From Bifidobacterium asteroides (GTDB taxonomy: Bacteria; Actinomycetota; Actinomycetes; Actinomycetales; Bifidobacteriaceae), in contig NZ_CP132384.1 of NCBI RefSeq assembly GCF_030758775.1, forward strand, positions 248,001 to 312,000: 64,000 nt of DNA. Direction: 5' to 3'. The position numbers were made by a program, and so were the translations under genes. The notes below the pieces were generated by a model, which made no database searches, was not told the origin of the DNA, and was given only the letters and a program-made list of their open reading frames with translations. This document shows positions 49,861 through 64,000 of the stretch, in pieces (position 1 is the stretch's first letter; each line of letters begins with the position of its first letter).

Positions 49861-52272
49861 ATGGATACTGAGGTCATGACCGATAGCGTGAAGGAGCGTG
49901 GCATTTCGGATCGCGATGCTGTCGATGGCATTCTGGTCGAGAAGCGCGACGGCCGGATCGTCGATTTTGATCCCGTCAACATCATGAATGCCATCGAAGC
50001 CGCCTTCAAGGATGTCAAGCACGAGGTCAGCCCTGAGGATCGCCAGCAGATCCGGGGCATGGCCCTGACCGTCCAGTCCGAGATCACCGATCGCTACACC
50101 AACCCGGTCAAGATCGAGGACATCCAGACCCTGGTCGAGCATGCCCTGGTCAATGCCCATCTTTACGAGATCGCTCGCTCCTATACCTCCTACCGTCTTG
50201 ACCGTGACATTCAGCGGGCCAAGGCCACTGATGTCAACGAGGCTGTTCACCGTCTGACCAGCAAGGACGAGACCCTGGTGCGCGAGAACGCCAACAAGGA
50301 CGCCAACGTCTACGCCACTCAGCGCGACCTGCTGGCTGGCGCGGTCTCCAAGGCCTCGGCCTTCGCCATGCTGCCCAAGGATGTCTCCAACGCCCATATG
50401 AAGGGCGACATCCACTTCCACGACGCGGACTACTCGCCCTTTACGGCCGAGACCAACTGCTCCCTGCCTGACTTCGGCGACATGCTGGCCCACGGCTTCG
50501 AGCTGGGCAACGCCATGATGGACTCGCCCAAGTCCATCGGCACGGCCGCCACGCAGATCACCCAGATCATCAAGGACATCGCCGGCTCCCAGTACGGTGG
50601 CCAGACCGTCAACCGCTGCGACGAGATGCTGGACAAGTACGCTCGTCTGGACTACAAGAAGAACTATTCCATGGCTGAGGCTGTCCTGCCGGACGAGGAG
50701 CCCATCGACGTGGCCAAGGATGTCGTCCGCGGCCTCAAGGCTCGGGAGGCTGACTGGCTCCACCTGGACGATCGTGCTCCCATCGGCGAGGATGCCCCCT
50801 TCGATCTGGACGCTCCCCAGATTGTTCGGCTGCGTCAGGTCTATGCCAAGATCCTGACCCGCAAGAACATCTATGATGCCATGCAGACCATGGAGTACCA
50901 GATCAACTCCAACCGTGTCAGCAATGGCCAGACCCCCTTTGTCACAGTGGGCTTCGGCCTGGGCACCTCCTGGTTCGCCCGGGAGATTCAGCGCGCTATC
51001 TTCCTGATTCGCATCCGTGGTCTTGGCAAGGACCGCCACACGGCCATCTTCCCCAAGCTGGTCTTCACCATCAAGCATGGGCTGAACGCCGACGAGGGTG
51101 ATCCCAACTACGACATGAAGCAGCTGGCCCTGGAGTGCTCCACCAAGCGTATGTACCCCGATGTGGTCTTCTATGAGAACCTGATCAAGATCACCGGTTC
51201 CTTCAAGGCCCCCATGGGCTGCCGCTCCTTCCTCCAGGCCTGGACCAACCCGGAGACCGGGGAGGACGAAGAGGACGGCCGCATGAACCTGGGCGTAGTC
51301 ACCGTCAACATCCCGCGTATCGCCCTGGAATCCCGCGGCGACAAGGATCGTTTCTGGAAGATCTTCGACCAGCGCATGGAGGTGGCCCATCACGCTCTGC
51401 AGTTCCGCATCATGCGCTGCAAGCAGGCCACGCCCATCAACGCCCCGACCCTCTACCAATACGGCGCCTTCGGCAGGCTGAAGCCGACCGACAGCGTGGA
51501 CACCCTCTTCCGCAACAGCCGTGCCACTGTTTCCTTGGGTTACATCGGTCTCTATGAGGCCACCAGCGTCTTCTACGGCAAGGACTGGATGAAGGACCAC
51601 TCCTGGGATCCGGAGGGCAAGGAATTCGCCCTGAGCATCGTGCGCCGGATGAATCAGCTCTGCAAGCAGTGGGAGAAGGCTGAGGGATACCACTACTCGG
51701 TCTACTCCACCCCGGCCGAGTCGCTGACCGACCGCTTCGCCCGGATGGACAAGGAGAAGTTCGGCGTTGTCGACGGCGTGACCGACCACGACTTCTACAC
51801 CAACAGCTTCCACTACCCGGTCTGGCTGCGGCCCACGCCCATGGAGAAGCTCAGCTACGAGCGGGACTTCCCTTACCTGGCCTCGGGCGGGTTCATCAAC
51901 TACTGCGAGTTCCCCTCCATGCAGCAGAACCCCAAGGCCCTGGAAGCGGTCTGGGATTACGCCTACGACATCGGCATCGGCTACTTGGGCACCAACACGC
52001 CCATCGATCACTGCTTCGTCTGCGGCTACGAGGGTGACTTCGAACCCACCGAGGAGGGCTTCAAGTGCCCCGAGTGCGGCAATGACGACCCTGACAAGTG
52101 CAACGTGACCAAGCGCACTTGCGGCTACCTGGGCAACCCCGTCCAGCGGCCCATGGTCCACGGCAGGCACGAGGAGATCGCCCACCGCGTCAAGCACATG
52201 GAGGGCGAGACCGGCCACGTGGTCCTCAAGGATGGATCCACCAAGGAGTGGTTCGACGACAAGGCCGAATAA
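49861..52272 (+). CDS. nrdD: Anaerobic ribonucleoside-triphosphate reductase
   Basis: This is an 803-residue class III reductase. An N-terminal ATP-cone (VEKRDGRIVDFDPVNIMNAI) is followed by the barrel domain. The C-terminus carries the zinc site, with Cys pairs in HCFVCGYEG and FKCPECGN, and the glycyl-radical motif RTCGYLGNP near residue 754. It reduces NTPs to dNTPs without oxygen, using formate as reductant in the family. GAGGAG precedes ATG 49861; an upstream GTG 49855 is less well spaced. The activase gene nrdG follows after a hairpin. It is essential for anaerobic growth unless another reductase exists elsewhere. Confidence 0.97.
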   Translation: MDTEVMTDSVKERGISDRDAVDGILVEKRDGRIVDFDPVNIMNAIEAAFKDVKHEVSPEDRQQIRGMALTVQSEITDRYTNPVKIEDIQTLVEHALVNAHLYEIARSYTSYRLDRDIQRAKATDVNEAVHRLTSKDETLVRENANKDANVYATQRDLLAGAVSKASAFAMLPKDVSNAHMKGDIHFHDADYSPFTAETNCSLPDFGDMLAHGFELGNAMMDSPKSIGTAATQITQIIKDIAGSQYGGQTVNRCDEMLDKYARLDYKKNYSMAEAVLPDEEPIDVAKDVVRGLKAREADWLHLDDRAPIGEDAPFDLDAPQIVRLRQVYAKILTRKNIYDAMQTMEYQINSNRVSNGQTPFVTVGFGLGTSWFAREIQRAIFLIRIRGLGKDRHTAIFPKLVFTIKHGLNADEGDPNYDMKQLALECSTKRMYPDVVFYENLIKITGSFKAPMGCRSFLQAWTNPETGEDEEDGRMNLGVVTVNIPRIALESRGDKDRFWKIFDQRMEVAHHALQFRIMRCKQATPINAPTLYQYGAFGRLKPTDSVDTLFRNSRATVSLGYIGLYEATSVFYGKDWMKDHSWDPEGKEFALSIVRRMNQLCKQWEKAEGYHYSVYSTPAESLTDRFARMDKEKFGVVDGVTDHDFYTNSFHYPVWLRPTPMEKLSYERDFPYLASGGFINYCEFPSMQQNPKALEAVWDYAYDIGIGYLGTNTPIDHCFVCGYEGDFEPTEEGFKCPECGNDDPDKCNVTKRTCGYLGNPVQRPMVHGRHEEIAHRVKHMEGETGHVVLKDGSTKEWFDDKAE

Positions 52273-52306
52273 GCTCTGACGAATAAGCTCTGACAAGACG
52301 CAGTTG

Positions 52307-52337
52307 ATGGCGGGCCAGGTAGTTTGCGGCCCGCCAT
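52307..52337 (+). terminator. Hairpin between nrdD and nrdG
   Basis: Perfect 10-bp arms ATGGCGGGCC and GGCCCGCCAT enclose an 11-base loop, followed by TGTC rather than a T-run. It lies in the 83-base gap between nrdD and nrdG and may attenuate or process the transcript to lower activase levels. Confidence 0.65.
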
Positions 52338-52355
52338 TGTCATGAGGAGGACCAG

Positions 52356-53078
52356 ATGACGGACAAACAGGCAGTCATGAAAAAGACGGGCGGCCACCGT
52401 GACTTCGCAGCTGATGAGCAGGGGCGCGGTCCGGGGGTTCCCTCTGCACTGACCAACAATCCCAAGGCCGGCCAGTGGGACGGTCGCCGGCTCAGTCGGG
52501 GAATCGTGGCGGACTACAAGCGTCTGGTCATGACCGACGGCGAGGGGATCCGCTGCTCCCTCTACGTCAGCGGATGCCCCTTCCGCTGCCAGGGGTGCTA
52601 CAACGCCTCCATATGGGACTTCGGCGCCGGGCACCCCTATACCCAGCAGCTTGAAGACCGCATCATCAAGGACCTGTCGCTGTCCTATGTGCAGGGCATC
52701 ACCTACCTGGGCGGGGAGCCCCTGCTCAACACCCCCATGCTGCTGGGCCTTTCGGAGCGGATTCGGCGCGAGTTCGGCCACGAGAAGGATATCTGGTGCT
52801 GGACCGGCTACACCTGGGAGGAGCTGAACCGGCCGGGGGAGACCCCGGACAAGGCCCAGCTGATCTCCTACCTTGACGTGCTGGTGGACGGACGCTACTT
52901 GGAGAATCGGAAGAACAGCCTGCTCCAGTTCCGAGGCTCGGACAACCAGCGGATCATCGACGTGCCACGGTCCTTGGAACAGGGCCAGGTAGTCATCTGG
53001 CCCAAGCTGCACGACCAGACCAGGTTCATTCCCGAGACCTACAGCAAGGACCGTCAGCAGGAGCAGCAGCGGGGCTGA
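52356..53078 (+). CDS. nrdG: Anaerobic ribonucleotide reductase activating protein
   Basis: This 240-residue radical-SAM activase has the iron-sulfur motif CPFRCQGC (C-x3-C-x2-C) near residues 74-81, followed by YNASIWDF, and GGEPLLN as the SAM-binding GGE motif. It generates the glycyl radical on NrdD. About 50 extra N-terminal residues ([17 protein letters not shown]...) precede the usual activase start, longer than the E. coli protein (154 residues). AGGAGG precedes the ATG. Confidence 0.95.
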
Positions 53079-53134
53079 TACCGGCTCCTGCTCTGAATTG
53101 GTCTACGTCGCCTTGCCGGGGCACAATGGGTGTC

Positions 53135-54661
53135 ATGACTGATGAGCATGATCACGACGCTAAACCCGACCTGCCTAAGGATCTGAGGGTCCGTTTCTGC
53201 CCTTCGCCGACCGGCACTCCGCATGTGGGCATGGTCCGCACAGCCCTCTTCAACTGGGCCCAGGCCAGGCATTCGCATGGCACCTTCGTCTTCCGCATCG
53301 AGGACACCGATGCCCAGCGCGACAGCGAGGAGAGCTACCAGCAGATTCTGGAGGCCCTCAAGTGGCTGGGTCTGGACTGGGACGAGGGTGTGGAGGTTGG
53401 CGGCCCGGATGGCCCCTACCGGCAGTCCGAGCGTGGCGACATATACCGCGATGTAGCCCGGCAGTTGCTGGATGCCGGCTACGCCTACGAGTCCTACTCC
53501 ACCGCCGAGGAGATCAAGGAACGCAACCTGGCCGCCGGCCGTCCTGCCGCTTTCGGCTACGACGGCTACGATCGCGACCTGAGCGAGGAGCAGCGTCAGG
53601 CCTTCCGCGATCAGGGCCGGCGACCAGCCCTGCGCGTCCGCATGCCCGACGAGGACATCGCCTTTGACGACCTGATTCGCGGACACATCGAGTTCAAGGC
53701 CGGGTCCGTGCCCGACTATGTGATTGTGCGCCCCAACGGCGATCCCCTTTACACGCTGACCAACCCAGTGGATGATGCACTGATGCGCATCAACGTGGTT
53801 CTGCGCGGCGAGGATCTGCTCAGCTCCACCCCCCGGCAGATCGTCCTCTACCGCTATTTGATGAAGCTAGGCATCGCTCGGGCCATGCCCCTGTTCGGAC
53901 ACCTGCCCTACGTCATGGGCCAGGGCAAGAAGAAGCTTTCCAAGCGCGACCCCGAGTCCAATCTCTTCCTGCACCGGGAACACGGCTTCATTCCAGAGGG
54001 CCTGCTCAACTATCTGGCTCTACTGGGCTGGTCCATCGGCCCCGACCGGGATGTCTTCTCCATGGAGGAGATGGTTGAGCACTTCGACATCCGCGACGTC
54101 AAGGCCAATCCGGCCCACTTCGACATCGATAAGGCCGTGGCCATCAACGCCGAGCACATCCGCATGCTGGAGCCGCAGGACTTCCTGGACCGGTCCCTGC
54201 CTTATCTCAAGCGCGACGGGCTGGTGAGTGCCGAGCGCTGGCAGGATCTGAGCGATCGTGAACAGCGAATTCTGACCGCGGCCGCCCCCTTGGTCCAGCC
54301 TCGAGTGCGTCTGCTGGGCGAGGTCTCCGGCATGGTAGGCAGTCTGCTCAGCCAGGAGGAGTACCTGGAACCCGAGCCGGATGCCCGAAAACAGCTCAAG
54401 GACTCCGCTGGACAGGTTCTGGACCTGGCCATTGCCGCTCTGCAGGATGTGCCAGACCAGGACTGGAAGACCGATCACCTGCACGACCTGCTCACTCAGG
54501 CACTGGTGGATGAGGGCGGCTACAAGCTCCGTCTGGCCTTCGGCCCGGTCAGGGTGGCGGTCTCGGGAAGGCGGGTCTCGCCGCCCCTGTTTGAGTCCCT
54601 GGAGATCCTGGGCAAGGGCACAACACTCCGAAGGATGGCCAACTTGCGCCAAAACCTCTGA
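53135..54661 (+). CDS. gltX: Glutamyl-tRNA synthetase
   Basis: This 508-residue class I aminoacyl-tRNA synthetase has the HIGH-type motif in [18 protein letters not shown], the KMSKS-type motif KKLSKRDPE, and [17 protein letters not shown]. The protein charges tRNA-Glu. In bacteria lacking GlnRS it also mischarges tRNA-Gln for amidation by GatCAB, and actinobacteria generally use that route. The start at ATG 53135 ([12 protein letters not shown]) is chosen over ATG 53126 by resemblance to bifidobacterial homologues. tRNA-Glu and tRNA-Gln genes follow immediately. Confidence 0.95.
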
Positions 54662-54729
54662 GCGGGTATATTTCTTTTTTGTTGTGCTACTGACCTGCTG
54701 AACCGGGTTCGTACGCGGCGAAAAGTGAA

Positions 54730-54802
54730 GCCCCCGTCGTCTAGCGGTCTAGGACTACGCCCTCTCACGGCGCCAACACCGGTCCAAATCCGGTCGGGGG
54801 TA
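54730..54802 (+). tRNA. tRNA-Glu (CTC)
   Basis: A 73-base cloverleaf with acceptor stem GCCCCCG/CGGGGGT (a G-U first pair), anticodon loop CCTCTCACG giving CTC, and T-arm ACCGG/CCGGT. The CCA end is not encoded. It lies 68 bases after gltX. Confidence 0.92.
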
Positions 54803-54843
54803 CGACATGTGGCAATTGTCCAAGCGATTGTCGCACAGCCAAT

Positions 54844-54915
54844 TGGGGTATGGTGTAATTGGCAACACAGGTGATTCTGGTTCATCCATTCTTGGTTCGA
54901 GTCCAGGTACCCCAG
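54844..54915 (+). tRNA. tRNA-Gln (CTG)
   Basis: A 72-base cloverleaf with acceptor stem TGGGGTA/TACCCCA, anticodon CTG within GATTCTGGTTC, and GGTTCGAGTCC in the T-arm. The U1-A72 end pair is the identity feature used for tRNA-Gln recognition by GatCAB in bacteria. It lies 41 bases after tRNA-Glu and is probably co-transcribed. Confidence 0.92.
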
Positions 54916-54938
54916 CGATAGAGACATGAAGTCCCAAG

Positions 54939-54967
54939 GAGCGGAATACCGACACGGTGTTCCGCTC
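54939..54967 (+). terminator. Terminator after the gltX-tRNA unit
   Basis: Arms GAGCGGAA and TTCCGCTC enclose a 13-base loop; TTCTTATTT follows, giving a rho-independent terminator. Confidence 0.85.
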
Positions 54968-54989
54968 TTCTTATTTACGCATTACCATG

Positions 54990-55010
54990 GATTCTAGGGA
55001 TTCTAGGGAT
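54990..55010. repeat. Short tandem repeat GATTCTAGG
   Basis: Two and one-third copies of the 9-base unit GATTCTAGG lie in the 270-base non-coding stretch between the tRNA terminator and the NADH dehydrogenase gene. The rest of that stretch holds no gene; it should carry the promoter of the respiratory genes. Confidence 0.6.
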
Positions 55011-55239
55011 GCTTCTGGTTTGCAAGGCGGCGGTCGGAGGCATCCACCAGAGTTGCCCACGGTGTGAGCAAGCAAACAAAAAGAGGAGGCCCGGCAGACT
55101 GCTATGTCAGAGTTTCCGATGATGGAATCTGATATTTTGAGCATAGAGGCTTGAGTGATGAACCCAATCATCGGCTGATCGGGGAATATCACCCAGTATG
55201 CGAATCATTGTACGATTTTTTCGATAAAGGTGTGTGATT

Positions 55240-56415
55240 ATGACGACAATCATGGTGTTGGGAGCTGGTTATGCTGGTCTTCGCGTGGTCAAGAAGCTGG
55301 CTCATGCAAAGACTGATGCCCATATAGTCCTGGTCAATCAGAACGAGTACCACTACGAGTCCACCCAGCTGCACCAGGTGGCGGCGGGAACCAAGGAACC
55401 GGCGGACGTGGTCTTCGACCTGCGCAAGTCCCTGCCTGATTCGGTGGAGCTGATTATTGACAAGGTGGTTGGCATCGATCAGGACAACCGCAAGGTCAGC
55501 CTGGAGCATCACGATCCTCTGTCCTATGATTACCTGGTCAACGCCCTGGGCTTCGAGTCGGAAACCTTCGGCATCAAGGGTGCCGAAGAGTACGGGTGGC
55601 CGCTCGTTGACGTGGACACCGCCTTGGCGGCCCGCAAGAAGCTGGAACAGACGCTGGCCCGCTACCAGACCAGCCATGATCCGCTGGATCTGAGCATCGT
55701 GGTCTGCGGCGCTGGCTTCACCAGCATCGAGTACCTGGGCGAGTTGGTCTACCGTCTGCCTCAGCTCTCAAAGCGCCTGGGCTTCCCCATGGATCAGGTC
55801 AAGGTGGACTGCATAGAGGCTTCGCCCAAGATTCTGCCTATGTTCAGCAAGGACCTGGTCGACTGGGCTGTGGATTACCTGCGCAAGCGGGGGGTCAACT
55901 TCCACACATCGACTGCTATCACCGAGGTCAGGCAGGATGCTGTGGTCTCCAATGACCAGGAGTTCAAGGCCCATACGATCATTTGGACAACGGGTGTGCG
56001 TGGTAGCCACGTTATTGCCGATTCCGGGTATAATCAGAAGCGTAACCGTGTAGTGGTCAGGGATGATCTGTCGGTGGAGCAGCATCCAGAGGAATTCCTG
56101 GTGGGTGATGTCAGCGCCGTTCCCGACCCCCAATCGGGTCGGCTCTATCCAACCACTGCACAGATTTCGATGGCCCAGGCTGATACCGCGGCCGCGAATG
56201 TCCTCGCCAGAATGCGGGGGCAGGAGCCCCAGCGGTTCACCTACAGAAGCCTGGGGACCGTGTGCTCTCTCGGTCCTCACGATGGGGTTGCCGAAATCGA
56301 CCGTATGGGCACGCTGAAGCTCAAGGGCAAGGTGGTCTCGGTCCTGAAGTGGATCGTGAACGAGCGGTCGGTCCTGGAATTGGCTGACGTGCGTACCATG
56401 TTGGAGAGCAACTGA
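55240..56415 (+). CDS. ndh: Type II NADH:quinone oxidoreductase
   Basis: This 391-residue membrane-associated flavoprotein has the FAD motif VLGAGYAGLRVV at the N-terminus and YHYESTQLHQVAAGT. The NAD-site motif VVCGAGFTSIEYLGEL is near residues 150-165, with VGDVSAVP and YPTTAQISMAQAD for FAD and quinone contact. It moves electrons from NADH to quinone without pumping protons. The sequence recalls the Ndh proteins of lactic acid bacteria. ATG 55240 follows AAAGGTG; a GTG at 55234 is weaker. It lies at the head of the cytochrome bd genes, forming the electron entry of the chain. Confidence 0.92.
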   Translation: MTTIMVLGAGYAGLRVVKKLAHAKTDAHIVLVNQNEYHYESTQLHQVAAGTKEPADVVFDLRKSLPDSVELIIDKVVGIDQDNRKVSLEHHDPLSYDYLVNALGFESETFGIKGAEEYGWPLVDVDTALAARKKLEQTLARYQTSHDPLDLSIVVCGAGFTSIEYLGELVYRLPQLSKRLGFPMDQVKVDCIEASPKILPMFSKDLVDWAVDYLRKRGVNFHTSTAITEVRQDAVVSNDQEFKAHTIIWTTGVRGSHVIADSGYNQKRNRVVVRDDLSVEQHPEEFLVGDVSAVPDPQSGRLYPTTAQISMAQADTAAANVLARMRGQEPQRFTYRSLGTVCSLGPHDGVAEIDRMGTLKLKGKVVSVLKWIVNERSVLELADVRTMLESN

Positions 56416-56469
56416 ACCAGCGTCTCAAGGGACGTAAAGGGCTAGACGACGAGGGAGAGGAGGACGAAC

Positions 56470-56700
56470 ATGATTCAGGTCATGAGGAAGCGGCGCATGT
56501 TCGTCCCGTCCCAGCCTCGGATTGGATCATTCTGGGCGACGATGGCCATCGGCCCTGCGTCCATCGACATCATTGACTACCTCCTGCTCCTCCTCATTCT
56601 GGCGAAGACCGTGGCCGACTGTGGCCTCCGCCAGAATGTTGGAGGCCCCCGTGCCCGTGCGCGGATCGGCAGGAGCGAGAGGAGAGTGGCATTAGCATGA
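56470..56700 (+). CDS. Small membrane ORF coupled to cydB
   Basis: This is a 76-residue frame with an excellent ribosome site (GAGGAGG, seven to eight bases before ATG 56470). Its TGA overlaps the cydB ATG (ATGA), so it is set up for translational coupling. It has one hydrophobic helix (ASIDIIDYLLLLLILAKTVA) flanked by basic residues (MRKRRM at the front, RARARIGRSERR at the end). It does not resemble CydX, CydS or CydH as I know them, and sits before rather than after cydB. It may be a small bd-oxidase partner, a leader peptide, or only a coupling device. A hairpin lies within its 3-prime half. Confidence 0.5.
   Translation: MIQVMRKRRMFVPSQPRIGSFWATMAIGPASIDIIDYLLLLLILAKTVADCGLRQNVGGPRARARIGRSERRVALA
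56595..56638. promoter_or_regulatory. Hairpin inside the small ORF ahead of cydB
   Basis: Arms CATTCTGGCG and CGCCAGAATG (10 bp, perfect) enclose a 24-base loop with further pairing (GTGGCC region). It lies 60-100 bases before cydB. It could be an attenuator coordinated with translation of the small ORF. Confidence 0.5.
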
Positions 56701-57749
56701 GTTTTCTACAAGGTTTGTGGTTCTTTGTCATTGGCCTGCTTTTTGCAGGATTCCTTCTGCTTGAAGGATTCGACTTTGGCGTTGGCATGGCTACCAGGTT
56801 CGTGGCCCGCGATGGTGATGAGCGCGCCACCTTCATGAGGGCTATCGGCCCCCACTGGGATGGCAACGAGGTCTGGCTGATCACCGCCGGCGGCGCTATG
56901 TTTGCTGCTTTCCCACTCTGGTATGCCTCCCTCTTCTCCGGGTATTACCTCCTGCTCTTCCTGGTGCTGGTCTCCCTGATCCTGCGCGGCGTCTCTTTCG
57001 AGTTCGCCTCCCATGCGCTGACCAGCCGTGAGCGTGGTGTCTGGCAGTGGGCCAACTTCATCGGCTCGCTCTTTGCGCCATTCTTCCTGGGCATGATGCT
57101 GACCAGCCTGATCCAGGGCATTCCCATGGATAAGAACGGCGATGCGTGGCCCGGGTTCTTCGACGTGTTCAACTGGCTGTCTGTGGTCGGCGGCATCGCT
57201 GTCGTCTTCTTCAGCTTCGTTCATGGCCTGCACTTCCTGAGCCTGAAGATGGGGGTCATGGATTCCCGTCGGATGCTCAACGTCAGCGAGAAGGCTTACT
57301 GGATCGCCTATCCAGCTCTGGTCGTCTTCGTGCTCCTGGCCATCTTCAACACCGACTTCTACAAGGCGCGTCCCCTGTCCACCTGGCTGATCACCGTAAT
57401 TATCCTGGCCTCGGTTATTGGAGGTCACGTTGCCGTTTTCAAGAAGCATGGCGGCTACGCTTTCACCTGCTCGGGCATCACCCTGATGGCCATCATCGCC
57501 TTTATCTTCAACGGGCTCTTCCCGCGGGTGATGATCGCTGATGATCCGGCCCACAACCTGCTGATTCAGGATGCCTCAGCTTCGCCGCTGACTATGAAGA
57601 TCATGACTGTGGTGCTTTGCATCTTCCTGCCCATCATGCTGGCCTACTTCATCTGGAGCTACTTCATCCAGCGCAAGCGGCTGGACACCGATGGTGCCCA
57701 TCTGGCCTCTCCTGTGGCCCCTTCGGCCACTGTGGCTGAGACCGTCTGA
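56697..57749 (+). CDS. cydB: Cytochrome bd oxidase subunit II
   Basis: This 350-residue subunit has about eight to nine helices: FAGFLLLEGFDFGVGMATRF, WDGNEVWLITAGGAMFAAFP, SLILRGVSFEFA and FVHGLHFLSLKMG. These are conserved CydB landmarks, including the EGFDFG and NEVW motifs. It is paired with CydA to reduce oxygen to water using quinol. Here it precedes the cydDC transporter genes and is separated from cydA by two genes, unlike the usual cydAB order. Its ATG overlaps the stop of a small membrane ORF. Confidence 0.96.
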   Translation: MSFLQGLWFFVIGLLFAGFLLLEGFDFGVGMATRFVARDGDERATFMRAIGPHWDGNEVWLITAGGAMFAAFPLWYASLFSGYYLLLFLVLVSLILRGVSFEFASHALTSRERGVWQWANFIGSLFAPFFLGMMLTSLIQGIPMDKNGDAWPGFFDVFNWLSVVGGIAVVFFSFVHGLHFLSLKMGVMDSRRMLNVSEKAYWIAYPALVVFVLLAIFNTDFYKARPLSTWLITVIILASVIGGHVAVFKKHGGYAFTCSGITLMAIIAFIFNGLFPRVMIADDPAHNLLIQDASASPLTMKIMTVVLCIFLPIMLAYFIWSYFIQRKRLDTDGAHLASPVAPSATVAETV

Positions 57750-57810
57750 AAGTTAAAGGAGGCAGGGGGGCAGTGCTGGCAGGACCGGAGCGCATCCGGA
57801 GGATAATGCA

Positions 57811-59754
57811 TTGATTGACAAAAATCTCTTCCGTTTCGACGGAGTCCGGTCCACATTGGGTCTGCTGGCCGCACTGTCCCTGGTTCAGGGAATAGGCGTG
57901 GTGGTTCAGGCCTATGGGTTGACCCTGGCTCTGGTACGTATTTGGCACCTTCAGAACCTCAAGGTGCTAGTGGTGCCGGTACTGATCTTTCTGGCCGCCT
58001 ACACCTGTCGACAGCTCTGCGATGTGGCCAAGGATCGTTTTGCCACTGACCGTGCCGACGCCATCATAGCCGAACTTCGGCCCCGTATTCAGGACAAGGT
58101 CTTCTCGCTGGGGCCGTCGGCTCTGGCCCGGCGTGGCACGGGCTCGGCCGTAACCATGCTGGTGGATGGGCTTGACCAGGTGCGTACCTACGTGCTGACG
58201 GTCCTGCCAAAGATGATGGATCTCATCTTCATCCCATTGATTGTCTTGGTTGTGGTCTGGACCCAGGATGCAGGTTCCGGGCTCATCCTCCTGCTCATGT
58301 TGCCCCTGCTTATCTTCTTCATGATCATCCTGGGCCTGGCAGCCAGGGATCGTTCCAGTCGGCAGTACGCTCAGTTCCGCAAGCTCAACACCAGATTCAT
58401 GGATACGGTCCTGGGCCTGCCGACCCTGAAGATGCTGGGCATTGACAAGGAGTACGAGGACGAGATCTATTCGGTCTCGGACCGCTTCCGCAAGAGGACC
58501 ATGAGCGTTATCAGGGTGGCCATGACCTCCACCTTTGCTCTGGACTTCTTTGCCACCTTGGCCATCGCCATCATGGCCGTCTTCCTGGGCAACAATCTGA
58601 TCAATGCCAAGGTGGAGCTCTTTCCAGCCCTCCTGGCCCTGATTCTGGCCCCTGAATACTTCATGCCCATCCGCCAGTTCGGAGACGACTTCCACGCCAC
58701 GCTGAACGGCAAGAACGCCTTGGACGATATTGCGGATATGCTGGCGCAACCAGAGCCCAAGCGCTTGGAGGAACTGGACTGGTCCGGGTGGAAGGAGAAC
58801 AGCCACCTGCGTCTGGAAGGAATAGACTTCGCCTATCCTGGCCCCAAGCCGGTGGAGAGCAATGCTTCAGCCGGGGCGCAGATGGATGCCATGGCCAAGT
58901 CCGAGAGCCAAAAGTCAAGCAAGAAGGGCAGCAAGCGCAAGGCATCCAAGGTTCATGACGGTAATGGGGGAGCGGTCTCGGCTGAGGCCGGTTCCACGGC
59001 ATCGCAGGGAACTGAAGTCGAGGCAGCTGTGGATTCTCAGGAGCAGCCTCTGGCGCTGAGCGGCCTGGACTTCAACCTGCACGGCTTTTCCAAGGTGGCC
59101 ATTGTCGGTCGCTCCGGAGCCGGCAAGTCCACGTTGATGGATCTGCTGGCCGGCTTTGACCAGCCCAAGGCAGGCGCCATCGACCTGGATGGTCATCAGC
59201 TGGAGCATTGCAACGTGGCTGCCTGGCAGCGGCACATCAGCTACATTCCGCAGAACCCCTTCATCTTCCACGGCACAGTGGCCGACAACATCCGCTTCTA
59301 CAAGCAGGATGCAGACGATGCCGCCGTGGCCCGTGCAGCCGACCGAGCCGGATTGAGCGACTGGCTGCAAACATTGTCTGACGGTCTGAACACTCGAATC
59401 GGAGAGGGCAACCGAGGCATCAGCGGCGGCCAGGCCCAGCGAATCGCCTTGGCCAGGGGGATCCTTGACCCCTCACGCGAGATTCTGTTCTTTGACGAGC
59501 CCACAGCCCACCTGGACATCGAGACCGAATACGACCTGAAGCAGACCCTGCTGCCCATCATGGACGGGCACCTGGTTGTCCTGGCCACCCACCGGCTGCA
59601 CTGGCTGGCCAACATGGACTGGGTGATCATGCTGGAGCATGGACGAATTGTGGCCCAGGGCGATCCGCGCAAGCTGATTGGTCAAGGCGGACCCTTGGAT
59701 GCGCTGATCGATGAGATGGGAGGGAACCAGATTGCCGACTACCAGCAGGACTGA
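57811..59754 (+). CDS. cydD: Cytochrome bd assembly ABC transporter, CydD
   Basis: This 647-residue half-transporter has six helices, then an ATPase domain with Walker A GRSGAGKSTLMD, ISGGQAQRIALARG and FFDEPTAHLD. CydDC exports glutathione/cysteine-type thiols, or by newer work handles heme, for bd oxidase assembly. Between the A-loop (FAYPGPKP, near residue 349) and the next strand (ALSGLDFNLH, near 414) is a low-complexity insertion of about 60 residues rich in Ser, Lys, Ala and Glu. The start is TTG 57811 (MIDKNLFRFDG) with GGAGG upstream. The end overlaps cydC by 20-44 bases depending on the cydC start. Confidence 0.92.
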   Translation: MIDKNLFRFDGVRSTLGLLAALSLVQGIGVVVQAYGLTLALVRIWHLQNLKVLVVPVLIFLAAYTCRQLCDVAKDRFATDRADAIIAELRPRIQDKVFSLGPSALARRGTGSAVTMLVDGLDQVRTYVLTVLPKMMDLIFIPLIVLVVVWTQDAGSGLILLLMLPLLIFFMIILGLAARDRSSRQYAQFRKLNTRFMDTVLGLPTLKMLGIDKEYEDEIYSVSDRFRKRTMSVIRVAMTSTFALDFFATLAIAIMAVFLGNNLINAKVELFPALLALILAPEYFMPIRQFGDDFHATLNGKNALDDIADMLAQPEPKRLEELDWSGWKENSHLRLEGIDFAYPGPKPVESNASAGAQMDAMAKSESQKSSKKGSKRKASKVHDGNGGAVSAEAGSTASQGTEVEAAVDSQEQPLALSGLDFNLHGFSKVAIVGRSGAGKSTLMDLLAGFDQPKAGAIDLDGHQLEHCNVAAWQRHISYIPQNPFIFHGTVADNIRFYKQDADDAAVARAADRAGLSDWLQTLSDGLNTRIGEGNRGISGGQAQRIALARGILDPSREILFFDEPTAHLDIETEYDLKQTLLPIMDGHLVVLATHRLHWLANMDWVIMLEHGRIVAQGDPRKLIGQGGPLDALIDEMGGNQIADYQQD

Positions 59755-61633
59755 AACCGCCGGAAGAAATGGCACGGGATCGTCGAAGACCTCCCGCCGC
59801 GGCCGCGGGCTGTCAGGCTACATGCATATCTGGCATCGGGACCATTGGTTCTGGCCCTACCTGCGTGAGAACAAGGGGCTGCTTGCCCTGATCTTCTTCC
59901 TGGGGACCATCACCTTCGTGTGCGCGGCTGGACTGATGTTCACATCGGGATTCCTGATCAGCAGGTCGGCCCGCCATCCCTTCAACATCTTCGCCGTATA
60001 CGTGCCGGTGGTCCTTACCAGGGCCTTCGGCATCGGACGACCCACATTCAAGTACATGGAGCGCATCAAGAGCCATGACTGGGTGCTCCGGGTGGTTTCC
60101 AAGCTGCGGGTTCAGCTCTACCGCACCCTCTCGCAGGATGCGGCCTTCCTGAACGAGCATGAGCGCACAGGCACGGTCCTGGGCATGCTCTCGGACGACC
60201 TGGACCATCTGGAGAACTTCTACCTGCGCACCATCTTCCCCACGGTCGTAGCCTACATGATGTGGGTGGTGGTGACCATCGCCGTAGGCGTCTTCTCCTG
60301 GCTGACCTCGCTCCTGCTCTTCCTGCTTTTCGCCCTGATCCTGATCCTGATCCCGCTGGTCTCGCTGGCTTATTCAGACGGGCGTTACGACATGGAGAAG
60401 GCACGGCGGCAGGATCAATACACTGCAGTGACCGAGAGCTACATGGGCCTGGGGGATTGGGTGATTACCCGCCGTCGGCGGCGCTTCGTGGACACGGCGT
60501 CCGGTGACTTCAACGACATCGCCACCGGCCGCAAAGAGCAGAAGCGGTTTGAACGCTGGCGCAACTGCGGCATCCAGATGATTTTCGCCCTCATGGTGGT
60601 GGCTCTGATTGTTGGAGCGGATCTGCGTATGACCAGCTCCACCTCCATTGCGGACTTCGCGGCAGCCGTGGTCCTGGCGGTCTTCCCTCTGGTCGACTGC
60701 TTCATCGTGGTCTCCCAGGCCGTGGCCGAGGTTCCCCTCTACACAGACTCGCTGGACCACCTGAATGATCTGACCGAGCGGGTCGAGTCCCGGCGAATTG
60801 AGCCGAGCGCCCAGACCAGGCTGGAGGGGCCGATCAAGTCAATCGTCTTCGACCATGTCAGCTTCTCCTATGGTCCTGATGACCCCCTGCTGCTGGACGA
60901 CTTCAGCCTGCGAATCGAAGGCGGGCAGCGCGTGGCCCTGCTCGGTCCCAGCGGCGAGGGCAAGACGACGGTCCTTCAGCTGCTCCTGGGCGACCTGCGC
61001 CCCACCAGTGGCCGCATCCTGATCAATGGAATACCGGTCGATGCCTTGCAGGATCAGCGTCCTGAGCTCTTTGGCTACCTGAACCAGCAGGCCTTCCTCT
61101 TCAACACCACCATCGCCTCCAACGTGCGTCTGGGCGCTCCCCAGGCCGATGATGATCAGGTTCGCCAGGCTCTGAAGGCTGTACAGCTGGATCAGGTCGT
61201 AGATGACATGCCCCAGGGAATCGACACGCCGGTGGATGAGGCTGGCGGCCGTCTTTCAGGCGGGCAGCGCCAGCGTCTGGCCCTGGCCAGGATTGTGCTC
61301 AAGCGCACGCCGATCATTCTTCTGGACGAGCCAACCATCGGTCTGGATCCCATAACCGAGCGGCGGCTCATGGCCATGATCTTCAAGGTCAGCCAGGATC
61401 GCACCCTTCTTTGGGTGACCCACCACCTCCAGGGGCTGGAGGAGGCCGACCAGGTCATCTTTATGCAGGATGGTCATATAGCCATGCAGGGTCGACCTGT
61501 TGATTTGTACCATGCGAACGCCCGTTTCCGTGAACTTTATCGCATGGATGTCTCGGACGTGGACAATGGTGCCGGTCAAGGGATATACTTAAAGAAGCAG
61601 TCAGATTCAGATGGACGGAACCCTGTTGAATGA
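59732..61633 (+). CDS. cydC: Cytochrome bd assembly ABC transporter, CydC
   Basis: This 633-residue half-transporter has a basic N-terminal tail, six helices (from LLALIFFLGTITFVCAAGLM, with TSGFLISRSA and the conserved RTFGIGRP-like LTRAFGIGRPTFKYMERI), then the ATPase domain with GPSGEGKTTVL, LSGGQRQRLALAR and ILLDEPTIGLD. Walker A reads GEGKTT. It partners CydD as a heterodimer. TTG 59732 follows GGAGGG and is preferred; ATG 59711 is further upstream in the same frame. Both overlap the end of cydD, so expression is coupled. Confidence 0.92.
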   Translation: MPTTSRTETAGRNGTGSSKTSRRGRGLSGYMHIWHRDHWFWPYLRENKGLLALIFFLGTITFVCAAGLMFTSGFLISRSARHPFNIFAVYVPVVLTRAFGIGRPTFKYMERIKSHDWVLRVVSKLRVQLYRTLSQDAAFLNEHERTGTVLGMLSDDLDHLENFYLRTIFPTVVAYMMWVVVTIAVGVFSWLTSLLLFLLFALILILIPLVSLAYSDGRYDMEKARRQDQYTAVTESYMGLGDWVITRRRRRFVDTASGDFNDIATGRKEQKRFERWRNCGIQMIFALMVVALIVGADLRMTSSTSIADFAAAVVLAVFPLVDCFIVVSQAVAEVPLYTDSLDHLNDLTERVESRRIEPSAQTRLEGPIKSIVFDHVSFSYGPDDPLLLDDFSLRIEGGQRVALLGPSGEGKTTVLQLLLGDLRPTSGRILINGIPVDALQDQRPELFGYLNQQAFLFNTTIASNVRLGAPQADDDQVRQALKAVQLDQVVDDMPQGIDTPVDEAGGRLSGGQRQRLALARIVLKRTPIILLDEPTIGLDPITERRLMAMIFKVSQDRTLLWVTHHLQGLEEADQVIFMQDGHIAMQGRPVDLYHANARFRELYRMDVSDVDNGAGQGIYLKKQSDSDGRNPVE

Positions 61634-61894
61634 CCATCAGGCTGTTTCCCGAGCAATGAATTTTGCACGGTTGTCGGGTCGCCGATCTTGTCGGATGGCT
61701 TCCCGGCCGGTCACCGTGCGCCGTCGGTTCATGGACTGGACGGTGAGGAAACCGGAGCCCGTGGAAGCGACCAGGTCGCGAAGTCGGGGAGAGCTGAAAG
61801 GTTCTTGTGGGCACAAGCCTGGTCATATCTGAATCCGTCCGGATTCGACCCGTGTACCCGCGCCCGACGAACCCTGCAGAGATTGGGAGGAACG
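61634..61894 (+). promoter_or_regulatory. cydA leader with two compact inverted repeats
   Basis: This 261-base gap in an otherwise tightly packed operon contains CTTGTG (61804-61809) / CACAAG (61812-61817) and GAATCCG (61831-61837) / CGGATTC (61840-61846), each with a 2-base centre, 50-90 bases before cydA. These suit an operator or short hairpins of a cydA-specific leader. No gene is supported in the gap. Confidence 0.5.
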
Positions 61895-63388
61895 ATGTTC
61901 ACTGTATTGGGATTGTCTAGATTCCAGTTCGCCATGACGACGATATTCCACTTCTTCTATGTCCCTATGACCATCGGTCTGGCCCTGGCGGTCGCCATCA
62001 TGGAGACCACCTATGTGGTGACCAAGAAGGATGTCTACAAGAAGATGACCATGTTCTGGTCCAAGATCTTCCTGCTCTCCTTCGCGGTCGGCGTGGTCAC
62101 GGGCATCATCCAGGAGTTCCAGTTCGGCATGAACTGGTCCAACTACTCCAGATTCATGGGTGACATCTTCGGTGCCCCCCTGGCCATCGAGGCCCTGCTG
62201 GCCTTCTTCCTGGAGTCCACTTTCATCGGCGTGTGGATGTTCACCTGGAATAGGTTCAAGCCGGCCGTGCATGTGATCTTCATCTGGCTGACCTTCCTGG
62301 GTTCCTCCATGTCGGCCATCTGGATTCTGGCTGCCAATAGCTTCATGCAGCACCCGGTTGGTTTCGAGATCAACCAGGCCACCGGTCATGTGCGACTGCG
62401 CAGCTTCGGTGATGTCATGTCCAATCCCCAGCTGTGGATCGAGTTCCCCCACGTCTTCTTCGCCGCCGTCTGCACAGGGGCCTTCGTGGTCATGGGCTGC
62501 AGCGCCTTCAGCCTGCTGAGAATGCACATGGGGAACAAGGATCAGGCCGTGGCCGCTGTCGAGGCCGACTCCGAGAAGCAGGCCAAGGTCAACCTGTTCA
62601 CCAAGTCCATTCGTCTGGCCGCCCTGCTCGGTCTTATCGGTTCCATCTGCGTGATCACCTACGGTGATTTGCAGGGCAAGTACATCGTGACCGATCAGCC
62701 CATGAAGCTGGCCGCCACCGAAGGCATCTACGAGGACACCGGCGATCCCGCTCCTTGGAATGCCGTGGCTCTGATCAATGAGAAGGACCATAAGATTGAA
62801 GGGTCCGTCGAGATTCCCGGAGCCATGTCACAGCTGGCTTACGGCAAGAAGACAGGCGCCGTCAAGGGCATGAACACCGTCAACAAGGAGTTGCACGAGA
62901 AGTACGATGCCAAGTATGGCAAGGACATGAACTACTACGTGCCGGTCACCACCCTATTCTGGGTCTTCCGTCTGATGGTCGGAATCGGGTTTGCCTTTGC
63001 CCTGATATCAGCATTGGTGCTCTGGTTCACACGTAAGAAGAAGAACACGCTCTTCACCACACGCTGGAAGCTCTGGATCATGGGTATCTTTACTTTCGCC
63101 CCCTTCGCTGCGACGACCAGTGGCTGGCTGGTGACTGAGCTTGGACGCTATCCATGGCTGGTTTATGGTTATCAGACCATTGCCGATGGCGTTTCGCCCA
63201 CCAGCACGGTGCCGAACCTGCTCTTCACCTGCATTGTCTACTTCCTGCTCTTCCTGGTTCTGGGCGGAGTCATGGTCTTCTATACCAGGAGGACCCTGCA
63301 CCAGGGACCCTTCTACAAGCCGGATGACGGCAATGGGCCGCAGCCTGCCAAGGTGCATGGCGCACCAGCTCGGGTGGCCCTGGCCTAA
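61895..63388 (+). CDS. cydA: Cytochrome bd oxidase subunit I
   Basis: This 497-residue quinol-oxidising subunit has about nine helices. It has LSRFQFAMTTIFHFFYVPMT with the heme-ligand His19, an axial His near residue 186 in EFPHVFFAAVCTGAFVV, VITYGDLQGKYI at the start of the quinol loop, and the Met ligand in VFRLMVGIGF near residue 361. GRYPWLVYGYQT follows in the last third. The quinol loop (about 255-350) is of the short type. GGGAGGAACG precedes ATG 61895; the frame is open further upstream but without conservation. It is placed after cydDC with its own leader. Confidence 0.96.
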   Translation: MFTVLGLSRFQFAMTTIFHFFYVPMTIGLALAVAIMETTYVVTKKDVYKKMTMFWSKIFLLSFAVGVVTGIIQEFQFGMNWSNYSRFMGDIFGAPLAIEALLAFFLESTFIGVWMFTWNRFKPAVHVIFIWLTFLGSSMSAIWILAANSFMQHPVGFEINQATGHVRLRSFGDVMSNPQLWIEFPHVFFAAVCTGAFVVMGCSAFSLLRMHMGNKDQAVAAVEADSEKQAKVNLFTKSIRLAALLGLIGSICVITYGDLQGKYIVTDQPMKLAATEGIYEDTGDPAPWNAVALINEKDHKIEGSVEIPGAMSQLAYGKKTGAVKGMNTVNKELHEKYDAKYGKDMNYYVPVTTLFWVFRLMVGIGFAFALISALVLWFTRKKKNTLFTTRWKLWIMGIFTFAPFAATTSGWLVTELGRYPWLVYGYQTIADGVSPTSTVPNLLFTCIVYFLLFLVLGGVMVFYTRRTLHQGPFYKPDDGNGPQPAKVHGAPARVALA

Positions 63389-63425
63389 TGGCCGGCTGAC
63401 CTTAAACACTCCCTTCCCCTTCGGT

Positions 63426-63467
63426 AAATCCCCCGCTTCGGACCGTATGGTCCGGAACGGGGGATTT
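63426..63467 (+). terminator. Terminator after cydA
   Basis: Arms AAATCCCCCG and CGGGGGATTT (10 bp) extend with inner TTCGGACC/GGTCCGGA pairing. It lies about 40 bases past the cydA stop and is followed by GCTGTC, so no long T-run is present on the plus strand beyond ATTT. Confidence 0.85.
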
Positions 63468-63637
63468 GCTGTCATAGGGTGTTTGTCATCAGCGGCTGCC
63501 AGCTGTGGTGAGATTCAGAAAAGAGAGCAATGCCAAGCATGAAGTGGCAGATATGACGGATGTTCGGCTCGTGGCTGATAGGAGGCTGGTCTCACTCGCT
63601 CTAGTTATGCTGCGCCGGTTCCGCCGCGCCGATTCGG

Positions 63638-64000
63638 TCAGACCTGGGCAGTCAGCTTGCTTACAATCCGCTGCAGCAAGCTGCGTATGCCCTCAGACAT
63701 GGGGGAATCCTCCAGGCTGTCTGAAGCCCGCCGCAGATAGTCTTTGGCGGTTTGACGGCTGCTTTCCATCAACTGGGGATGTGCTCTGAGGTAGTCGACT
63801 ACCTGTTCGGGATCGTCCTGCTGGACCAAGGCTCTGAAGTTCTCATCCTTCTGGAACCCCAGCAGAACCGGCAGAGTGTAGATTCCGTCGCGGATATCCT
63901 CCAGCTTGGGCTTGCCGCTGTCACGATCCAGATCAAAATCGTTGATGTCGTCAATGATCTGGAAAGCCATGCCTAGATTGCCGCCGAAGTCTCTGGCGGT
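63638..64000 (-). CDS. Polyprenyl diphosphate synthase, C-terminal part (runs off right edge)
   Basis: The visible 121 residues begin within ARDFGGNLGMAFQIIDDIND and contain the second aspartate-rich motif DDINDFD that binds Mg-diphosphate in trans-prenyl synthases, then KPKLEDIRDGIYTLPVLLGF. This resembles heptaprenyl/octaprenyl synthases of lactic acid bacteria, which make quinone side chains and lie next to cyd and ndh genes there. An alternative is a general geranylgeranyl-type synthase. The N-terminus and first DDxxD motif lie beyond the window. It converges on cydA. Confidence 0.85.
   Translation of the reverse strand, partial: TARDFGGNLGMAFQIIDDINDFDLDRDSGKPKLEDIRDGIYTLPVLLGFQKDENFRALVQQDDPEQVVDYLRAHPQLMESSRQTAKDYLRRASDSLEDSPMSEGIRSLLQRIVSKLTAQV

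Follow-up and report, generated by a model that had tools for sequence, protein, structure and literature searches.

A Lactobacillaceae-type cytochrome bd module in a bee-gut Bifidobacterium, with cydA probably replaced by a second copy

We report that the right end of a 64-kb stretch from a Bifidobacterium asteroides genome (the window; positions 248001-312000 of a single host contig of 2,083,947 bases, NZ_CP132384.1) carries a cytochrome bd module that appears to be of the Lactobacillaceae type, and in which cydA, the gene for subunit I of the oxidase (61895..63388, + strand), seems to have been swapped for a second, divergent copy, the first copy being left as a relic in front of cydB; we give this reading a probability of roughly 0.8. 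The host belongs to the bee-gut B. asteroides group. Bifidobacteria are textbook fermenters, and earlier work on B. asteroides regarded its respiration as ancestral and as having disappeared from the species that live with mammals. In our comparison the module instead looks like one of Lactobacillaceae type, and its odd gene order can be traced to the replacement of one subunit of the oxidase.

The module as such is already known, and what is new is its history, i.e., the two cydA copies and the relic, not the kind of system. In B. asteroides PRL2011 the genes carry the tags BAST_0290 (cydB), 0291 (cydD), 0292 (cydC) and 0293 (cydA) (PMC3447821; for this and the other papers cited we refer to the portions of the text that were available), that is, identical genes in an identical order as judged from the locus tags, and some of the 13 relatives studied here carry the same species name. 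In its available text that paper says nothing about the order, about a relic or about a second cydA; it names MenF, MenC and MenE, gives the men genes as a menaquinone route and argues for ancestry, with no recent transfer according to codon use or GC content. In the part available, PMC4449606 argues from GC for ancestral presence and loss, and cyd genes are reported from bee- or insect-associated and a few other bifidobacteria (PMC5540593, PMC4449606, PMC4319941). The cydABCD genes of bee-associated bifidobacteria and Firm-4 lactobacilli described in these three papers resemble the present case in host range and in the link between niche and oxygen. A limited search of the open-licence literature (titles and the starts of abstracts) gave no report of bifidobacteria with two cydA genes, with a relic of cydA or with cyd genes originating from Lactobacillaceae.

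Gene order across the Bifidobacteriaceae

Along the + strand the module consists of ndh, a small open reading frame (ORF), cydB, cydD, cydC, a leader and cydA, with a gene for a polyprenyl diphosphate synthase (PPS) converging from the right, and the predicted ORFs and family matches bear out this order as given in a preliminary description of the window. CydA was searched for in 189 Bifidobacteriaceae genomes and a match was found in 50 (48 at E < 1e-160), in agreement with the statement made there that most bifidobacteria lack cytochrome bd. We mapped 41 loci, comprising the window and 40 of the other 49 CydA-matching genomes (unmapped: G097, G098, G100, G102, G103, G104, G107, G109 and G110). 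The cydA gene stands directly before cydB in 28 of the 41, the order being ndh-cydA-cydB-cydD-cydC in 27 and cydA-cydB-cydD-cydC, with ndh located elsewhere, in L073. It follows cydC in the other 13, i.e., the window and its closest relatives (L002 and L037-L048; the asteroides group). The cydA-last order, rightly singled out in the preliminary description as unusual, is therefore so even within the family and is confined here to 13 close relatives. A PPS match was present inside the fetched stretch at 36 of 41 loci and fell outside the view in L049, L050, L054, L067 and L069. Three loci (L069, L070 and L072) have two tandem ndh matches upstream of cydA.

Relationship to Lactobacillaceae

A contig scan with six CydA queries and two short motifs gave at least 80 loci, at least 13 of them from Bifidobacterium and at least 67 from Lactobacillaceae. 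Among the matches listed, identity of CydA to Lactobacillaceae is 55-67%, with Schleiferilactobacillus shenzhenensis at the top (67%), while the best-scoring CydA from members of the order outside the family shows 43% identity (149 genomes searched, 132 non-family genomes with a CydA match). Trees were computed with 23 of the 67 listed Lactobacillaceae, the 10 best-scoring of the 132 non-family actinobacterial genomes and three of the 13 asteroides-group sequences. In the CydA tree the bifidobacteria fall within Lactobacillaceae, beside S. shenzhenensis and then Oenococcus (100/95 and 100/97), and all 21 bifidobacterial CydA sequences included fall into a single group (100/98). The CydB tree gives the same placement (99/97 and 100/99), and here Lactobacillaceae as a single clade is rejected in the approximately unbiased (AU) test (p = 0.0024). 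On this basis the cyd module is best described as Lactobacillaceae-type, since CydA and CydB both branch with Lactobacillaceae and not with the actinobacteria sampled.

The gene order agrees with this. In S. shenzhenensis, Companilactobacillus and Lacticaseibacillus the arrangement is cydA-cydB-cydD-cydC, often with a converging PPS gene, and S. shenzhenensis, where ndh also lies upstream, has the complete order ndh-cydA-cydB-cydD-cydC followed by the converging PPS gene. Among the Lactobacillaceae loci listed, a converging PPS-like match was seen in 50 of 67 (no more than 2 kb from cydC in 48 of the 49 that could be measured) and ndh was in view in 2 of 67. They differ from the window in that cydA directly precedes cydB in 67 of 67, and follows cydC in none of the 63 with cydC downstream in view. 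The HemQ of the window's genome passes NF008913 (304; cut-off 253) and fails the actinobacterial model NF042928 (70; cut-off 235).

Several observations weigh against a Lactobacillaceae origin. For CydA alone a single Lactobacillaceae clade is not rejected (AU p = 0.139), so that the nesting rests mainly on CydB and the shared gene order. The two-motif contig scan covers the loci listed, and closer relatives elsewhere could be missed; CydA identity is as high as 46% for some non-family members of the order, and 50% for one 200-residue piece. The PPS protein is 27-44% identical to those of Lactobacillaceae. Finally, third-position GC of cydA (0.80) and cydB (0.77) is near that of the host gene gltX (0.80) and the available text of PMC3447821 reports no sign of recent transfer; any transfer would thus be old.

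The published alternative for B. asteroides, according to which the cyd cluster is ancestral in bifidobacteria, was inherited vertically and was lost in the mammal-associated species, draws on this host-like GC (our third-position values; PMC3447821 and PMC4449606, as far as their text was available), and the single group formed by the 21 CydA rows is consistent with early presence in the family. We nevertheless regard it as improbable, considering that CydA and CydB are nearer to Lactobacillaceae than to the 132 matching non-family actinobacterial genomes, that the trees with the 10 best of these agree, and that the order with a converging PPS gene is shared with Lactobacillaceae. The available text of PMC4449606 derives an ancestral origin from GC, whereas in the trees presented here CydB nests in Lactobacillaceae. 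Part of the ancestral view would also fit a single ancient transfer to an early bifidobacterium with losses afterwards.

A link to lactic acid bacteria had been proposed in the preliminary description, with gut species as possible donors and trees as the means of comparison. The link stands, as CydA and CydB group with Lactobacillaceae over the sampled actinobacteria and order and PPS are held in common; the tree comparison came out in its favour for the grouping of both subunits and not for the CydA clade test, and the gut donors are not borne out, the nearest donor-like genomes among those listed being S. shenzhenensis and Oenococcus oeni, which are not known as gut lactic acid bacteria. As a separate matter, CydB of L073 (G154) is placed, with poor resolution, among basal Lactobacillaceae and may represent a separate acquisition (tree with 18 Lactobacillaceae, 6 of the 10 actinobacterial genomes and two of the 13 asteroides-group sequences).

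The small ORF as a cydA relic

The small ORF between ndh and cydB (56470..56700, + strand), listed among the genes in the preliminary description, is what remains of the 3' end of a former cydA and not a protein gene, because it shares its ending with the cydA of related species, aligns with that gene far above shuffled sequence, shows no codon-position bias and has a broken frame in some genomes. Specifically, in the indicum/coryneforme group (L034 = G143, L035 = G140 and L036 = G139) cydA overlaps cydB and terminates in ..NERRVALA, and the small ORF terminates in ..SERRVALA with the same overlap with the cydB start. The 28 nucleotides (nt) before the cydB ATG (56669..56696, + strand) agree at 27 of 28 positions with the 3' terminus of G143's intact cydA. 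This stretch is nearly invariant across the 13 asteroides-group genomes and has probably been retained as the ribosome-binding region of cydB. In Smith-Waterman local alignments (200 dinucleotide-preserving shuffles each) five asteroides-group intergenic regions gave z scores of 13-20 against the cydA 3' ends of L034 and L035, and of 0.8-9.3 against L049, L050, L054 and the window's own cydA. Variable sites at codon positions 1/2/3 number 23/21/21 in the first 180 nt of the small ORF (eight same-register genomes), compared with 15/6/135 for cydB and 25/10/193 for cydA; the last 48 nt contain one variable site in the eight genomes.

It is very improbable that the small ORF encodes a functional CydX-like or other small oxidase subunit, for although it overlaps cydB, includes a hydrophobic stretch and has an uninterrupted frame in 10 of 13 genomes, both this stretch and its final part can be aligned with the end of the intact G143 cydA, its variation is flat over the codon positions where that of cydB is not, its frame is disrupted in 3 of 13 genomes (L046, L047 and L048), no conserved coding frame as looked for in a CydX-like subunit was found, and searches of NCBIfam and Pfam gave no family match.

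Two cydA lineages and reciprocal loss

A second cydA copy is found in G143. There cydB is preceded by an intact cydA, and the region behind cydC, adjoining the PPS gene, contains pieces of another cydA with broken frames that cover query residues 1-54 and 249-369. Relics are accordingly present on both sides, i.e., before cydB in the asteroides group and after cydC in G143. The end of cydC and the start of the leader are 75% identical between G143 and the window over 138 nt, and the cydA pieces are 83% identical. The 5' part of the window's leader is hence homologous to the region before the decayed copy; on its own the leader matched nothing in the searched loci, even with E allowed up to 1, and only the wider stretch aligned with G143. 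In G139 and G140 there is no CydA match after cydC.

The trees (six of the 13 asteroides-group sequences used for CydA of the two groups and for CydB, CydC and Ndh) distinguish the cydA lineages. The asteroides and indicum/coryneforme groups (the latter being G139, G140 and G143) cluster with a support of 99 in CydB and 100 in CydC. In the CydA tree, by contrast, the asteroides group joins L049 and L050-L054 (100/100 for the set), the indicum/coryneforme group lies outside, a single clade of the two groups is rejected (AU p = 1.5e-4) and so is a clade of the two with L050-L054 (p = 3.6e-6). Since the two groups unite in CydB and CydC and a single CydA clade is rejected, their common ancestor seems to have brought together two old lineages of cydA, of which each line retained a different one. 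The same rejection excludes that their CydA proteins are recent duplicates of one another.

We suggest that the older order was ndh-cydA-cydB-cydD-cydC with the PPS gene converging, as in other family members and Schleiferilactobacillus, and that a second, divergent cydA was present behind cydC in the ancestor from which the asteroides and indicum/coryneforme lines arose. The asteroides line would then have lost the first cydA, leaving the small ORF as its relic, and come to use the second, and the indicum/coryneforme line would have retained the first and lost the second.

Some of the data fit this history less well. Ndh supports the union of the two groups weakly (69). A quick FastTree run put the G143 fragments within the asteroides group, a placement that would agree with a later arrival of the second cydA in G143 by transfer; with a long branch and few columns we give it little weight. 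As to which of the two copies may be native, the CydA branching (L049,(L050-L054, asteroides group)) agrees with the CydB tree, which favours the second copy as vertical and the first as incoming, and as a counterpoint the asteroides and indicum/coryneforme groups, L050-L054 and L049 also form one side of a branch in the CydA tree (81/73).

A simple relocation, in which the original cydA shifted behind cydC and no second copy ever existed, is hardly credible: it agrees with the single CydA match in the window's genome, but a relic of another, indicum-like cydA sits at the old place, G143 has one intact copy in front of cydB as well as a decayed one behind cydC, and a single CydA clade of the two groups is rejected. 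Together with the order survey these points lead us to reject it.

Proposed function of the module

In the replacement history favoured here the genes would encode a short chain in which type II NADH dehydrogenase (NDH-2) reduces a naphthoquinone with electrons from NADH and CydAB oxidises the resulting (demethyl)menaquinol with O2, CydDC supporting heme insertion or assembly. The naphthoquinone tail would be made by the neighbouring PPS and joined by MenA encoded elsewhere in the genome. Since cytochrome bd builds a proton motive force without pumping, such a chain would be expected to regenerate NAD+ and to lower O2 in the bee gut.

Standing apart from cydB, cydA could be under control of its own. 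Whether the swap was itself adaptive is doubtful, and we think it unlikely that the hybrid oxidase, in which CydB stayed in place and CydA, encoded behind cydC after a leader of its own, comes from another lineage, altered quinol use, O2 affinity or control and, together with retained ferrochelatase and HemQ, gave rise to the working respirers among bee bifidobacteria.

Quinone supply

The PPS gene follows the oxidase closely: at E < 1e-40 it was found in 48 of 48 family genomes with full CydA (E < 1e-160) and in none of the 141 others, among them G109 and G110, whose CydA is partial or divergent. The suggestion that quinone-tail synthesis is encoded alongside the oxidase is thereby strengthened, although no chain-length equivalog was above its cut-off. 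No quinone or men gene was recognised among the ORFs read over approximately 7 kb to the right of PPS, where the preliminary description had suggested looking for them; the genes recognised there, by eye and not by a family search, are leuC, leuD and others unrelated to quinones.

Cofactor genes were examined in a panel of 46 family genomes and 14 control genomes. MenD was over the cut-off in one of 46 (controls 7/14), not the window's genome, which has two weak matches; some match was seen in 45 of 46. MenG/UbiE was over the cut-off in none of 46, with weak matches in 23 and no match in the window's genome (controls 10/14), and the futalosine family PF02621 (MqnA/MqnD) was found in none of 46 (controls 4/14). 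A full men pathway in the window's genome was discarded on the basis of MenD and MenG; MenF, MenC and MenE were not searched one by one. The UbiA family, present in 46 of 46, does not help to tell respiring genomes from others. Two neighbouring genes for MenA homologues above the TIGR00751 cut-off lie behind lysS in the window's genome (L087 7054-9048 = G000:C1:1597053-1599047), and UbiA matches number two in each of the 12 other asteroides-group genomes and one each in G139, G140 and G143.

MenA-type and PPS genes without MenD or MenG over the cut-offs point to a (demethyl)menaquinone route that scavenges 1,4-dihydroxy-2-naphthoate (DHNA), and predict that demethylmenaquinone is made from imported DHNA. 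In Lactococcus a menG deletion retained growth as in respiration (PMC8303990, part available). The available text of the same paper describes quinone and heme from outside in several species with the Lactobacillaceae module. G096 is the sole panel genome with MenD over the cut-off, has three side-by-side ferrochelatase matches and is possibly a fuller respirer.

Heme supply and reported O2 uptake

Ferrochelatase was found in 18 of the 46 panel genomes (13/13 of the asteroides group, G126, G015, G096, G101 and as a decayed piece in G143) and HemQ in 17 (13/13, G015, G096, G101 and decayed pieces in G143); the decayed hemH and hemQ pieces lie on contig C18 of G143. HemE (TIGR01464) had no match in the window's genome and was over the cut-off in none of 46 (controls 6/14). 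The wider family PF01208 (uroporphyrinogen decarboxylase, URO-D) matched the window's genome with 40 bits over about half the profile, above a low cut-off, and 7 of 13 asteroides-group genomes in all; these are taken as other URO-D family members, not HemE. In the window's genome hemH, a gene for a major facilitator superfamily (MFS) transporter and hemQ are clustered (L086 8545-11657 = G000:C1:1032544-1035656), and our guess is that the MFS protein is a porphyrin carrier. With hemH and hemQ over their cut-offs and no HemE match, heme completion is probably coproporphyrin-dependent, and heme is predicted to derive from an imported coproporphyrin-type precursor. The preliminary description had called the NADH-to-O2 module complete; this stands for the enzymes and fails for cofactor synthesis, where MenD, MenG, HemE and the futalosine family do not pass and the host seems to make neither the naphthoate nor the porphyrin itself.

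O2 uptake of 6.2 nmol/min per mg dry cells has been reported for B. asteroides PRL2011, and none for B. coryneforme, B. indicum, B. actinocoloniiforme and B. bohemicum (PMC3447821, available text). In our panel G139 (B. indicum LMG 11587), G140 (B. coryneforme LMG 18911) and G025 (B. bohemicum) have cyd but neither ferrochelatase nor HemQ. G126, perhaps B. actinocoloniiforme, has HemH and lacks HemQ. The match between missing heme-finishing enzymes and missing O2 uptake is a correlation over few species, not a test; in the cyd-bearing bee bifidobacteria without O2 uptake, added heme and DHNA should switch respiration on.

Genes and signals of the module

The ndh gene (55240..56415, + strand; 391 amino acids) matches PF07992 with 140 bits, and its best PDB match is S. 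aureus NDH-2 5na1 (E = 5e-86; 5na1/5na4 at 290-292 bits); in the family search no NCBIfam equivalog was above its cut-off. With an NDH-2 as the nearest solved relative, the product is probably a type II NADH dehydrogenase. The cydB gene (56697..57749, + strand; cytochrome bd subunit II, 350 amino acids) scores 263 bits with TIGR00203 (cut-off 117) and 298 bits with PF02322. CydA (cytochrome bd subunit I, 497 amino acids) scores 510 bits with PF01654 (cut-off 26) and 315 bits against PDB 7d5i and 7nkz, and is under the cut-offs of the equivalogs NF011677 and NF011609. As both subunits exceed curated family cut-offs, CydAB is predicted to be a cytochrome bd oxidase. Residues H19, E99, E107, H186, K271, E276, M361, E415 and R418 are invariant in six bifidobacterial CydA proteins, and the same letters appear in the alignment to 7d5i; His19, Glu99, Glu107, His186, the Met of FRxM, the Lys and Glu of QPxK..E and the motif ExGRxPW are what we take to be the heme-ligand or quinol-site residues.

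The subunits of the thiol reductant ABC exporter, cydD (57811..59754, + strand; TIGR02857, 528 bits, cut-off 435) and cydC (59822..61633, + strand; TIGR02868, 446 bits, cut-off 329), are both above their NCBIfam cut-offs; the cydC start at about 59822 is a prediction, its ORF opening at 59711. CydD has an extra low-complexity Lys-/Ser-rich insert between the membrane and ATPase parts (approximately 58850-59060), and its length differs from relative to relative.

Between cydC and cydA lies a leader of 261 nt (61634..61894, + strand), as read from the sequence. A promoter-like TGGACA-18-TATACT at the end of cydC (61560..61589, + strand), with 10 of 12 consensus bases, might serve cydA, and a scan of the region gave 3 such sites against 3.6 expected, i.e., no better than chance by count. 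The motif GATATAC precedes cydA in the 13 asteroides-group genomes as well as the decayed copy in G143, where it may be retained as part of cydC. An inverted repeat directly 3' of cydA (63426-63467, with 10-bp GC-rich arms), not among the sites listed by the region scan, looks by eye like a terminator facing PPS. The window contains the C-terminal part of the PPS gene (63638..64000, - strand), which runs past the right edge and encodes 319 amino acids as a whole; the whole protein matches PF00348 with 181 bits. Rfam, with gathering thresholds, predicts two transfer RNA genes over 50000-64000.

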